Shown piece by piece: positions 3,541-24,362 of a stretch of 24,362 nt of DNA. Source of the stretch: a virus; IMG/VR virus record IMGVR_UViG_3300048625_000031, positions 1 through 24,362 of that record. One strand, given 5' to 3'. Under the pieces are notes generated by a model. That model was not told where the DNA came from, did no database searches, and was given only the letters and a program-made list of their open reading frames with translations. Positions within the stretch are counted from its first letter, which is position 1, and each line of letters starts with the position of its first letter. The position numbers were made by a program, and so were the translations under genes.

Positions 3541-4695
3541 ATGTCTAACAAGATTAATCTCGTAGAAAATGCGATTGCTCGCATTGAAGAGAACACCACG
3601 AAGCGTCAGATGGAAGCTGCAAAGCTTTACTTCGCCGCTAAAGAGGGCGACGTTCGCGCTCGCGTAACTCTTCAGGAAGGTATCTCCACTTCGGATGTTC
3701 CTACTCTTCTTCAGCCTGCAATCAATGTTGAGTTCCTTTCCAAGTATGCTGTTCAGCCTACTGTCTGGAACCAGATTGCTCAGGAGAAGCAGCTTGAGTT
3801 CAACACTGAGTACAAGTTCGGTAACTTCGTTATCGATGCTTCGTCACTTGGTAACGTAAACGGAAGCACTCACACTGCTGGTGGACTCCCCGTAGTTCCC
3901 GAGTACGCTGAGTACCCTGCTGTCAAGTTCACTACTTCTTCTTCGAGCGTTACACTGCGCGACAAGAAGGGTATCCGCGCACGTCTGTCGTGGGAAGCTC
4001 TCCGCAAGTCGGGTAACTTCGACCTCATCAACGAGTTCACTACCTACTTCGCTGTTGCTGCTGCTCGTGAAGAGGACTTCGTTCTTGCTAAGCAGTTCGT
4101 TACCGCTGGTGGAGCTGCTGCTTCCGCTTGGTCAGGTAAGGGCGTTTCGGGTAACCCGACTCTTGCTGGCGATGTTAATGCTGCTCTTGAGGCTCTCGGT
4201 GCTGCTAAGACTGCTTCGCGTAACTTCAAGGTTGACGGTAACCCGATTGCCGTAAACCAGTGGAAGCTCGTTCACGGTGTTGCACTTACCCCGACTGTTG
4301 ACAAGCTGTTCAACCTGACCGGTGTTAGCCACCGTCAGACCACAACAGATGGCACGCTTGACTTCGCTGTCAACCCCGGTGTTTACACTGGTGGAATTGC
4401 TCCTGTTGAGTTCCCTGCACTCGATGGTGTTTCTGCTGGAGCAACGGATGACTTCTGGTTCCTCGTTCCCGTTAACCCCGTTCGCCCGAACTTCCACGAG
4501 TTCTTCCTCACTGGTGAGCGTGCTCCGCTCATCACCATCAAGGACAGCGGTCACATGTCGCTGGCTGGTGGAGAGGTTCCTGTTCGTGAAGGTTCGTTCG
4601 ATGAGGATGACATTCAGACTCGTGTTCGCCACCTCGTTGAGGCTGGAACTATGAACTCTGATGGCTTCGTCTACTCGACTGGTGCTGGCGTTTAA
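3541..4695 (+). CDS. Major capsid protein, HK97 fold
   Basis: At 384 residues, directly after the protease-scaffold and decoration genes, this is the major head subunit. The N-terminal 45 residues are charged and helical (MSNKINLVENAIARIEEN), consistent with a delta-like arm. The remainder fits HK97-type proteins: an N-arm/E-loop region with GNFVIDASSLGNV, a spine helix near SWEALRKSGNFDLINEFTTY, and a C-terminal P-domain with RAPLITIKDSGHMSL. The start has a good SD (AAGGA at 3528-3532, eight bases from ATG). Codon use is strongly shifted to C-ending codons (TTC, AAC, CTC, GTC), a sign of selection for high translation. A terminator 18 bases downstream closes the unit. Confidence 0.88.
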   Translation: MSNKINLVENAIARIEENTTKRQMEAAKLYFAAKEGDVRARVTLQEGISTSDVPTLLQPAINVEFLSKYAVQPTVWNQIAQEKQLEFNTEYKFGNFVIDASSLGNVNGSTHTAGGLPVVPEYAEYPAVKFTTSSSSVTLRDKKGIRARLSWEALRKSGNFDLINEFTTYFAVAAAREEDFVLAKQFVTAGGAAASAWSGKGVSGNPTLAGDVNAALEALGAAKTASRNFKVDGNPIAVNQWKLVHGVALTPTVDKLFNLTGVSHRQTTTDGTLDFAVNPGVYTGGIAPVEFPALDGVSAGATDDFWFLVPVNPVRPNFHEFFLTGERAPLITIKDSGHMSLAGGEVPVREGSFDEDDIQTRVRHLVEAGTMNSDGFVYSTGAGV

Positions 4696-5274: not shown

Positions 5275-5280
5275 TAAGAT
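5275..5280 (+). promoter_or_regulatory. Putative -10 box (TAAGAT) inside the intergenic region
   Basis: TAAGAT followed by AGAATT matches the spacing of the window's other promoter-like boxes and predicts a start at G5287. No obvious long gene starts there. It could drive a short RNA or read through to 5374. Confidence 0.4.
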
Positions 5281-5286
5281 AGAATT

Positions 5287-5352
5287 GCATGGTTCCTCCT
5301 CCAATCCAGCCATGCTTGGCCCCCCGTTGTAGCTTATGCTCCGGGGGGCTTC
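5287..5352 (+). ncRNA. Candidate small RNA with CCTCCTCC loop
   Basis: The predicted transcript starts at the first base of an inverted repeat, GCATGG (5287-5292) with CCATGC (5310-5315). Its 17-base loop contains CCTCCTCC (5295-5302), an anti-SD-like sequence. A second, stronger hairpin (5319-5349) follows and could end the RNA. Loop bases 5297-5305 are perfectly complementary to the SD region at 9171-9179, and 5295-5303 to that at 23255-23263. The alternative is a 26-codon ORF (5289-5369) or plain intergenic spacer. No RNA family is recognised, so confidence is limited. Confidence 0.35.
5319..5349 (+). terminator. GC-rich hairpin, probable terminator
   Basis: GCCCCCCG (5319-5326) pairs perfectly with CGGGGGGC (5342-5349) across a 15-base loop in which AGC and GCT (5331-5333, 5338-5340) could also pair. 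The downstream tract is only TTCCCTAT, so intrinsic termination may be partial. Confidence 0.6.
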
Positions 5353-5361
5353 CCTATGAGG

Positions 5362-5367
5362 TAGAAT
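5362..5367 (+). promoter_or_regulatory. Putative -10 box (TAGAAT) for a leaderless connector mRNA
   Basis: TAGAAT is followed by six bases (AGAGTT) and the ATG at 5374, with no SD. The shared form TAGAATAGA also occurs at 7522. Confidence 0.5.
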
Positions 5368-5373
5368 AGAGTT

Positions 5374-5769
5374 ATGGCAAATACAGGCGTAGCACCCGTA
5401 GACTTGGGTTCAAACATTGGTCGTGTTCGTGTACTACTCGGAGACACTGACCCAACAAATATTGTTAACACTACTGGCGAATATCTTTTCTTCAGCGATG
5501 CTGAAATTGAATCCATTCTTACCATGTATGGTGATAACCCTAAACTGGCTGCTGCACGCGCTCTTGAGACTATTGCGGGGTCGCAAGCGCTTCTGCTGAA
5601 GTCGTGGTCATCTGATGACTTGACAGTTAATGGTGACCGTATCGCTAAGGAGTTACGTGAGACTGCTAAGCAGTTGCGCACTGAGGCTGCCAATTGGGAG
5701 TCTAGTGATTTCTATTCACTGATTCAAACCATTGATGCTGATGACCCTACGGTGACGTGGTGGAATTAG
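5374..5769 (+). CDS. Head-tail connector (adaptor) protein
   Basis: This 131-residue protein has the usual pattern of portal-proximal adaptors (HK97 gp6 / SPP1 gp15 type). An N-terminal segment RVRVLLGDTDP is followed by FFSDAEIESILTMYGDNPKLAAARAL, the D-E-I-x-x-hL motif plus Ala-rich helix. Then come ASP/Lys-containing SSDDLTVNGDRIAKEL and a helix KQLRTEAANW. These proteins ring the lower face of the portal and receive the stopper. It opens the neck gene block, and the next gene starts one base after its stop codon (TAG T ATG), so translation is probably coupled. The start lies six bases after a TAGAAT box, consistent with leaderless initiation. Confidence 0.75.
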   Translation: MANTGVAPVDLGSNIGRVRVLLGDTDPTNIVNTTGEYLFFSDAEIESILTMYGDNPKLAAARALETIAGSQALLLKSWSSDDLTVNGDRIAKELRETAKQLRTEAANWESSDFYSLIQTIDADDPTVTWWN

Positions 5770-9154: not shown

Positions 9155-9182
9155 GTTTGTATCAAACCCTATTGGAGGATTT

Positions 9183-9821
9183 ATGTCTAACGAAATTGAA
9201 AAAGAAATCATTTCACTTGTTGATGAAGTAACTGATAAGAAAACATTTAACATTATTGAAGCAATCAGTAATCGTTCATACCCTCACACATCAGTTAATG
9301 TTTTTCTTAATGAGTCTCTTGCATTTGATGCGGCACAACTTGAGGAAGAGATTCTTTCACTTGAGCTTTTGAGCGATGATGTTTCTTTAAGTAGAGTTCT
9401 TGAACTTCAAGAGAAACTTGATAACATTATTGAAGAGCTTTCTGCACAGAAGTATGTGTTTCATATTTATGGTATTTCTGAGGGTGAACGCGAAGAGATT
9501 CTTAACGCTACTAAAATCAAATACCCTGTCGAGTATGACGAGGAAAAGAATCCTTATACTGGTGCAGTAACAAAGGTTGAAAAAGATAATGCTGAACGTG
9601 ACCGTCTGTTCACTATTCTTTTGTGGAAGTCACAGATTCGTAAGATTGTTTCCGCTGATGGTTCCGTGCAGGAAAATCTTATTGAGCATGATATTGAACA
9701 GCTGCGTTCTGCACTTCCGGTAGCAGCTATTGCTGAAATCAATAATGCTATCGAGAAGGTTCGTGCTTCCACAGCAATGTTTATGGCTAAGGTAAATCAG
9801 GATTTTTTAGCGAAGCGCTGA
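9183..9821 (+). CDS. Tail assembly chaperone (gpG-like)
   Basis: Tail assembly chaperones bind the tape measure and help tube polymerisation; two forms are made from one start by frameshifting. This 212-residue protein is acidic and mostly helical (EKEIISLVDEVTDKKTFNIIEA, cut here for length) with a charged central coiled coil. Start: the ATG at 9183 has GGAGG four bases upstream of TTT ATG; a longer in-frame ATG at 9114 begins inside the terminator and is rejected. Near the 3' end, the heptamer T TTT TTA (9803-9809) in frame allows a -1 shift into the downstream frame, so this is the shorter, unshifted product. Position between tube and tape measure genes supports the call. Confidence 0.85.
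   Translation: MSNEIEKEIISLVDEVTDKKTFNIIEAISNRSYPHTSVNVFLNESLAFDAAQLEEEILSLELLSDDVSLSRVLELQEKLDNIIEELSAQKYVFHIYGISEGEREEILNATKIKYPVEYDEEKNPYTGAVTKVEKDNAERDRLFTILLWKSQIRKIVSADGSVQENLIEHDIEQLRSALPVAAIAEINNAIEKVRASTAMFMAKVNQDFLAKR
9803..9809 (+). promoter_or_regulatory. Programmed -1 frameshift slippery heptamer T TTT TTA
   Basis: In frame it reads GAT TTT TTA GCG, giving the X XXY YYZ form with U-runs, a known slippery class. A -1 slip re-enters at AGC (9809), in the same frame as the open stretch that ends at 10216. Bases 9809-9819 can form a tiny AGCG/CGCT hairpin, too close to be a convincing stimulator; no strong pseudoknot is apparent by eye. Confidence 0.8.
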
Positions 9822-23235: not shown

Positions 23236-23269
23236 TGATTTCAATTGTTCCAAATGGAGGAGGGCAACT

Positions 23270-24362
23270 ATGCCTAAGCACGAAGAACTATTCGATATCG
23301 CAGCATTCCAATCTGACCTTGCTGACATCAGCATTCCGAGTCGTGAAGTAGCTGCTCGTTGGGGTACAGGAAAAACTTTCATCGCTAAGCATCGTCAGCT
23401 TATGATGCAAAGCAAAACCGTACAGGTAAACGAAGGCAACGGTCCACTCTGGAATCCGATAACAAACGCCAAGCCTACAATCGTGAAGTCAAATACTGCA
23501 ACCCCGTTGACGAAGAGCGACTGGAAGACGGCAGTAATCTTTCCCGACCCTCAGATTGGTTTCCGCCAGTTTGATGACGGCTCGCTTGACCCATTCCATG
23601 ATGAGTATGCAATGGATGTTGCATTGCAGGTTCTCGCATTCGAGCAGGAACAGAATGGTGTTGACCAAGTAGTTAACCTTGGTGACTTCCTTGACCTGCC
23701 ATCGCAGGGGCGCTTCGCTCAAGAAGCTACGTTTGCTAACACGACTCAACTTGCTATTGATGCTGGTCACTTGTTCCTTGCCAAGCAGCGAGCTACTGCA
23801 CCCAATGCAGATGTTGTTCTTATCGAGGGTAACCATGACCGTCGCTTGCAAAACTTTGTTGAAATTAATGCTTTGGCTGCGTTTGGGTTGAAGCGTGCGC
23901 AAGCTCCCAACTCTTTGCCTGTCATGTCGCTACCTTTCTTGCTGCGTCTTGACGAGTTGAATGTTACATACATTGATTCGTATCCTGCTGGTAAGCATTG
24001 GATTGCTGACAACCTGCGTGCTATTCACGGCAACAAGGTTCGCTCGAATGGTTCAACTGCTGCTGCTTACACGAATGATATGCCTCACATCTCTACCGTG
24101 TTCGGTCACACACACCGCCTTGAAATCCAATCTAAGACAACTTGGGACCGTGTAGGTAAGATTAGGTCAATGGCTATCTCTCCGGGCTGTCTATGCCGCG
24201 TAGACGGCGCTGTACCTAGTGTTCATGGTTCTATTGGTGTTGATGGTCGCCCAGCTGTAGAGTATGAGAACTGGCAGCAGGGTGTTGCTGTTATCAAATA
24301 CAAAGATTCAGGCGAGTTCTTTGTTGACCTCGTACAAATTGATGATGGTCGCACGGTTTATC
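23270..24362 (+). CDS. Calcineurin-like metallophosphoesterase with HTH-like N-terminus (3' truncated)
   Basis: The ATG at 23270 is six bases after GGAGGAGG. The frame is open to the window end (364 codons seen). Residues about 22-45 (IPSREVAARWGTGKTFIAKH) look like a helix-turn-helix. The rest is a calcineurin-type metallophosphoesterase with four motifs: FPDPQIGF (D93, Q95 in place of the usual His), GDFLD (138-142), EGNHDRR (G187-N188-H189-D190) and GHTHR (279-283). These bind two metals and cleave phosphoesters. Related phage enzymes sit near structural or replication genes, and their substrate is usually unknown. DxQ for DxH is an unusual first motif. The gene has its own SD, so it may belong to the next, perhaps early or DNA-processing, block. 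Confidence 0.85.
   Translation, partial: MPKHEELFDIAAFQSDLADISIPSREVAARWGTGKTFIAKHRQLMMQSKTVQVNEGNGPLWNPITNAKPTIVKSNTATPLTKSDWKTAVIFPDPQIGFRQFDDGSLDPFHDEYAMDVALQVLAFEQEQNGVDQVVNLGDFLDLPSQGRFAQEATFANTTQLAIDAGHLFLAKQRATAPNADVVLIEGNHDRRLQNFVEINALAAFGLKRAQAPNSLPVMSLPFLLRLDELNVTYIDSYPAGKHWIADNLRAIHGNKVRSNGSTAAAYTNDMPHISTVFGHTHRLEIQSKTTWDRVGKIRSMAISPGCLCRVDGAVPSVHGSIGVDGRPAVEYENWQQGVAVIKYKDSGEFFVDLVQIDDGRTVY

Follow-up and report, generated by a model that had tools for sequence, protein, structure and literature searches.

A conserved phage RNA gene with a hairpin loop complementary to the Shine-Dalgarno core

By analyzing a 24,362-nt stretch of phage DNA (positions 1 to 24,362 of the IMG/VR record IMGVR_UViG_3300048625_000031; hereafter, the window), we identified at positions 5287-5351 what is almost certainly a conserved noncoding RNA gene. 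It is comprised of two hairpins, the first of which carries a nearly invariant loop whose core is the reverse complement of the Shine-Dalgarno (SD) core GGAG(G). Members of the family are 55-85 nt long and are found in one copy per phage, under a predicted promoter of their own inside the late (head) module. Few structured RNAs combine strong covariation with a single copy per genome in divergent phages, and this one is absent from Rfam at the family thresholds. The feature proposed at positions 5275-5352 in the initial annotation is thereby confirmed, and the case for it is stronger than first stated. In the best reading, the RNA acts through some form of SD-site masking. Our explanation as a whole, to which we give somewhat more credence than doubt, is that a late anti-SD RNA would mask leadered mRNAs, from which leaderless and translationally coupled late genes would escape.

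The RNA gene lies on the plus strand between the gene for the major capsid protein (3541-4695, plus strand; Pfam PF25209, E 9.9e-18), which served as the upstream landmark, and the next structural gene (5374-5769, plus strand; PHROG 18316, a family of unknown function, E 1.9e-20), probably a head-tail adaptor as judged by its position. The capsid proteins of the window and of Clavibacter phage CN1A share 41% identity. A -10 element, TAAGAT (5275-5280), is located 6 nt before G5287, the predicted start, and the inverted repeat begins with this G, exactly as initially described. The 6-bp repeat GCATGG/CCATGC reported there is present as well; its length has to be revised, since folding extends the stem by a U-A and a U-G pair to 8 bp. 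The resulting hairpin P1 occupies 5287-5315, with arms at 5287-5294 and 5308-5315. Its loop, CCUCCUCCAAUCC, includes the anti-SD stretch CCUCCUCC (5295-5302), for which the family alignment A9 gives the core CUCC(U). Hairpin P2 (5318-5350) is a terminator-like stem with a UU bulge on its 5' side (5327-5328) and UUAU in its loop region, followed by a T-rich tail in the family. The 65-nt RNA of the window is predicted to fold with -32.7 kcal/mol (z -4.2). A further -10 element on the same strand, TAGAAT (5362-5367), ends 6 nt before ATG 5374 and marks the next gene as a separate, apparently leaderless transcription unit.

These signals are conserved among the relatives. Of 57 distinct members, 55 have TAnnnT 3-10 nt (nearly always 5-8 nt) before the RNA start set by the model, compared with a background of 10%. 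In 51, five or more T are found among the 12 nt that follow P2, and 55 have both another TAnnnT and a start codon no more than 70 nt downstream of the RNA. Since the RNA has its own -10 element, a T-rich tail after P2 and a separate promoter downstream, we consider it an independent gene, and the sequence data agree with the original proposal of a discrete RNA of ~65 nt with a promoter, an anti-SD-loop hairpin and a terminator-like hairpin. In most phages the RNA is found directly upstream of the adaptor-like gene, as would be expected for a cis-acting leader or attenuator of that structural gene. However, the tail after P2 and the separate downstream promoter and start codon argue against such a role, as do three phages (L078-L080) in which the next gene, read from the sequence by eye, is WhiB-like and lies on the opposite strand. 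The cis-leader reading is thus largely refuted and very unlikely. The opposite-strand WhiB-like gene adjoins the RNA at L078:4230-4398, L079:4260-4500 and L080:4260-4390. Six genes of the window, starting at 673, 2208, 4760, 5374, 7535 and 16796, have TAnnnT 6-7 nt before the ATG and look leaderless with promoters of their own.

A CCUCC-loop hairpin that begins 4-7 nt behind a -10 element, together with a GC hairpin, was found at the matching site in relatives with capsid identities of 96-100%, 57-58% and 41%. A scan for a -10 element plus CCUCC-loop hairpin through 18 phage records (1.25 Mb over both strands) yielded 19 matches, 17 of which were the RNA site, one per record, and two were due to chance; the hairpin thus occurs far beyond chance expectation. 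The remaining record (G005) has the unit and was missed by the scan for having G-U pairs in excess of the allowed number. With a capsid alignment of distant members (A7), 262 loci were matched in IMG/VR, and we retained the 80 best. Two covariance models were built, R1 from seven clade-2 sequences and R2 from 19 distant phage sequences (A8), the latter with the window and its clade left out; since MAFFT misregistered P1 across clades, both relied on within-group alignments and structures given by hand.

The clade-1 sites were among the top matches of R1. The R2 model matched the window over the full length of 5287-5351 (39.2 bits, E 5.6e-6 in 757 kb) as well as Clavibacter phage CN1A (34.5 bits, E 6e-5; record KF669650, RNA at 42880-42943, minus strand), and recovered nearly all clade-1 and clade-2 members, the first off-site match appearing at E 0.21. 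Full-length matches were obtained for 58 of 62 distant IMG/VR loci, and one more (L227) was cut by the contig end. All 12 long IMG/VR records contained one copy; in three short IMG/VR contigs the RNA was not found. In the distant loci, the distance between the RNA and the capsid gene reaches about 2.4 kb, and where genes are inserted behind the capsid gene (L086, G014, L081), the RNA is still present farther downstream. One of these phages has, immediately behind the capsid gene, an additional hairpin led by a promoter (L081:4200-4260; loop UUUUCUCCC), and the CCUCC hairpin farther on. When we looked for relatives that have the genes without the hairpin or its loop, most relatives turned out to keep both.

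The family has members beyond the reach of the model. In clade 3 (L078-L081) the unit is clear by eye and by the scan and was missed by R2, and Jojan60 has a clear P1 with an R2 score of only 15 bits. A search of Pan2, Amigo and Molivia with R2 gave no match, though CCUCC-containing hairpins are found at the matching place. Jojan60 (L040) and Pan2 (L039), were recorded from Stenotrophomonas and Pseudanabaena, respectively; their capsid proteins are related to actinophage capsid proteins, and the RNA site holds a hairpin with UUUCCUCCUUUC. Amigo (L044:3225-3260) and Molivia (L045:3290-3325) have a hairpin with the loop GUUCCUCC before the downstream gene, beyond what R2 can detect, which is possibly a diverged or convergent version of the RNA. 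No clear unit was found by eye or with R2 in CMP1, Kukla, LuckyBarnes, BarnCat, Yappy and MinS1, and a capsid-based search of GTDB genome contigs identified no prophage relative. The exact 16-mer GCATGGTTCCTCCTCC occurs in 31 stretches of IMG/VR, three of them from the phage group of the window; by our own estimate, 31 is about the number expected by chance.

Covariation in related phages is strong in both P1 and P2. In the R2 alignment of 56 distinct sequences, which was fitted to the structure and comprises related sequences, the margins are wide: the paired cells amount to 98.2%, two-sided changes are seen in 15 of 18 pairs, and doubly changed cells number 238, as against 69 in shuffles, with none of 500 shuffles reaching 238. 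Partners slid along the same alignment are paired in 45-55% of cells. The R1-based set of 21 sequences, similarly fitted and related, has 99.0% of cells paired and 15 of 19 pairs changed on both sides. By hairpin, two-sided changes among relatives affect every one of the six pairs modeled for P1, where 96.4% of cells are paired, and nine of the 12 pairs of P2, where 99.1% are paired. The P1 stems include GTCGCG/CGCGAC, GTCCCA/TGGGAC, GTTGCG/CGCAAC and CCAGC/GCTGG, which share no sequence. Such changes preserve pairing and not codons, which argues against a leaderless small protein of 26 codons read from ATG 5289. The -10 spacing of this open reading frame is that of the neighboring leaderless genes, but its ATG is not kept, the RNAs of relatives starting with GCGTGG, GTAGC, CCAGC or GTCGCG. 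The reading frame is not conserved and the candidate, extremely improbable in our view, was ruled out.

While the P1 stems differ fully, 52 of the 53 distinct A9 sequences that have letters at the loop positions retain CUCCU (the remaining one has a C-to-U change), a pattern that argues for SD masking. The base that follows CUCCU is U in 45 of 52. Since clade 1 has CUCCA and clade 3 has CUCCG, CUCC is the core of the whole family. The P2 bulge is conserved in part: its first base is U in 54 of 54 A9 sequences and its second base varies (U in 43, C in 8, A in 3), and the bulge is followed by a G-C pair (55/55) and an A-U pair (55/55), while the outer P2 pairs vary. The window contains the variant GUUGUAGC (GUAGC, with an extra U before the A), and its close relative G002 has the canonical GUUGAG.

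These invariant features of P2 are accounted for neither by anti-SD pairing nor by termination. The arrangement of a first U, then G-C and A-U (upper stem GAGC/GCUC), is that of the arginine-binding site of HIV TAR, a structural likeness only that implies no common descent. The invariant TAR-like bulge suggests a protein partner, and it provides a handle for finding one. The RNA as a whole could be a protein-binding RNA with an arginine-fork-like P2 bulge, involved in head assembly, DNA packaging or ribosome binding, with CUCCU contacting a protein or a ribosomal component. This role would explain the invariant bulge amid varying outer pairs and the conserved location in the head module. However, the location can be due to simple linkage, the conserved loop is an exact complement of the SD core, and the loop change of clade 1 is mirrored in SDs; we consider this explanation unlikely.

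Two candidate mRNA targets were named in the initial annotation on account of 9-nt complements to the loop, the SD of the tail-chaperone gene (9171-9179, plus strand; ATG 9183) and the SD of the phosphoesterase gene (23255-23263, plus strand; ATG 23270), and both complements are exact. Among 2000 loop shuffles that preserve the core (CTCCTCC kept), at least one 9-nt start-region match arose in 431 (about 21%) and two in 24 (about 1%), thus these matches are only moderately unusual. The accompanying suggestion that extra flanking complementarity marks the two genes as specific targets did not hold up, as the flanking loop bases are not kept in relatives. The match of the tail-chaperone leader to the loop is 7 nt in G001-G004, 6 nt in G005 and a 5-nt core in G011/G012, for which the loop predicts CGGAGG and the sequence is UUGGAGG. 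The phosphoesterase SD matches over 9 nt also in G001 and over 8 nt (GGAGGAGG) in G003.

Comparison of clades gives a broader picture of the base next to the core. The tail-chaperone SD is UGGAGG in all six clade-1 phages (loop CUCC-A) and AGGAGG in all eight clade-2 phages (loop CUCC-U). Among clade-1 SDs in general, U precedes GGAG in 53% versus 27% elsewhere (p 9e-5, the orthologs not being independent), and GGAG sites other than SDs show no such U shift between clade 1 and the others. In clade 3 (loop CUCC-G), C precedes GGAG in 18% of SDs (p 0.08), and the expected preference is not clear. Because the preference of clade 1 for U is general at SDs and absent elsewhere, the loop and the SDs may co-vary genome-wide, either by direct pairing or by both following the host.

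An alternative is a trans-acting sRNA of the conventional type, directed specifically at one or a few mRNAs (in the window, tail chaperone at 9183 and phosphoesterase at 23270), for which CCUCC is the seed only. It would be consistent with two exact 9-nt matches at SDs, a rare pair in the shuffles, and with tail-chaperone SDs that mirror the loop in both clades. In contrast, the difference between clades 1 and 2 represents roughly a single event in evolution and accords with the background preference, clade 3 does not obey the rule, and in most relatives only 5-7 nt of the match are left, making this alternative rather unlikely. Covariation of the loop with the tail chaperone as a specific target is consistent with clades 1 and 2 but not with clade 3, is weak in Jojan60, and was rejected. 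The tail-chaperone gene (9183; orthologs in L089-L102) is SD-led, has its own promoter in nearly all relatives read, and differs in its SD leader from most neighboring late genes.

The masking of SD sites, our preferred reading, can be envisaged as follows. Transcription would start at the first base of P1, which would present CCUCCU as an accessible loop, and end with the terminator-like P2. By mimicking the 3' end of 16S rRNA, P1 would pair through its loop with SD sequences and cover them, and initiation would be blocked on leadered mRNAs, i.e., those of the host and of early phage genes. Expression of the few late genes that have an SD (the tail chaperone, for example) would be dampened, and leaderless and translationally coupled late genes would escape. 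Such an escape is plausible, with indirect support from gene content: by crude gene calls, leaderless genes make up 18% on the strand of the RNA and 5% on the other strand, and SD-led genes 19% and 33%, respectively (p 1e-6). As a precedent, mycobacteria that lose the anti-SD of 16S rRNA almost cease to make protein; preferential translation of leaderless mRNAs after such a loss is disputed (PMC12274833). A generic decoy, however, must outnumber its target mRNAs, SD-led genes of the late strand, such as the tail chaperone, would be hit as well, clade 3 has no clear C before GGAG, and the P2 invariants are left unexplained by masking. It is doubtful that masking is global and serves as an early/late or host/phage switch. 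Equally tentative is a version in which a late RNA mimicking the 16S 3' end would, together with a protein on the TAR-like P2, silence SD-led mRNAs of the host and of early phage genes while translation of leaderless late mRNAs continues. Should the proposed action hold, the toxins that remove the anti-SD would have an RNA counterpart, and the abundance of leaderless genes in the late modules of these phages would have a function.

A search of Rfam (4227 families) produced no match for the window at gathering scores and otherwise weak matches only. The 6C RNAs are defined by two loops of six or more consecutive C, whereas the window has CCUCCUCCAAUCC in the P1 loop and UUAU in the P2 loop region, and no 6C covariance match was obtained for the window, L057 or L062, even at E 10. 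The 6C/B11 sRNA of Actinobacteria and the phage RNA are alike in being small RNAs with C-rich hairpin loops. Either C-rich loop of B11 in M. abscessus suffices to repress an mRNA with a G tract in the 5' UTR (PMC10470900), a further precedent for the masking proposed here. That work concerns bacteria, whereas our RNA belongs to phages, has CUCCU(U) instead of a run of C in its loop, and conserves the P2 bulge. The Betaproteobacteria toxic small RNA (RF02278) likewise consists of two hairpins with a terminal terminator, and its consensus CUCCUCC and the stretch CCUCCUCC of the window (5295-5302) have an anti-SD motif in common. Kimelman et al., in 2012, reportedly linked this motif of RF02278 to toxicity in E. 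coli. The RF02278 search gave the relative L062 20.2 bits (E 0.033) versus a gathering score of 50 and no match for the window; we claim membership in neither 6C nor RF02278.

The staphylococcal sRNAs with C-rich loops differ in being bacterial and in having another architecture and a defined target mRNA; one of them, RsaA, is reported to pair with the SD sequence of its target (PMC3961350). The toxins MazF-mt11 and RelE1, which remove or cleave the anti-SD, act on the same functional node, the SD to anti-SD contact (PMC12274833; PMC12620021); in contrast to the phage RNA, which would mimic the rRNA end, they are protein RNases that act on 16S rRNA. In the titles and abstracts returned by our searches of an incomplete open-access collection, no description of this RNA was found.

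Two other parts of the RNA are of note in individual groups. The P2 loop of clade-2 phages (L114, L115, L116, L122) is pyrimidine-rich and conserved (ACCCCCUUCCC), and it is possible that it represents a second SD-binding loop. In one subclade (L178, L183, L186), a GU-rich spacer between P1 and P2, TGTGTTGTGTTCACAT, recurs and may form a further element.
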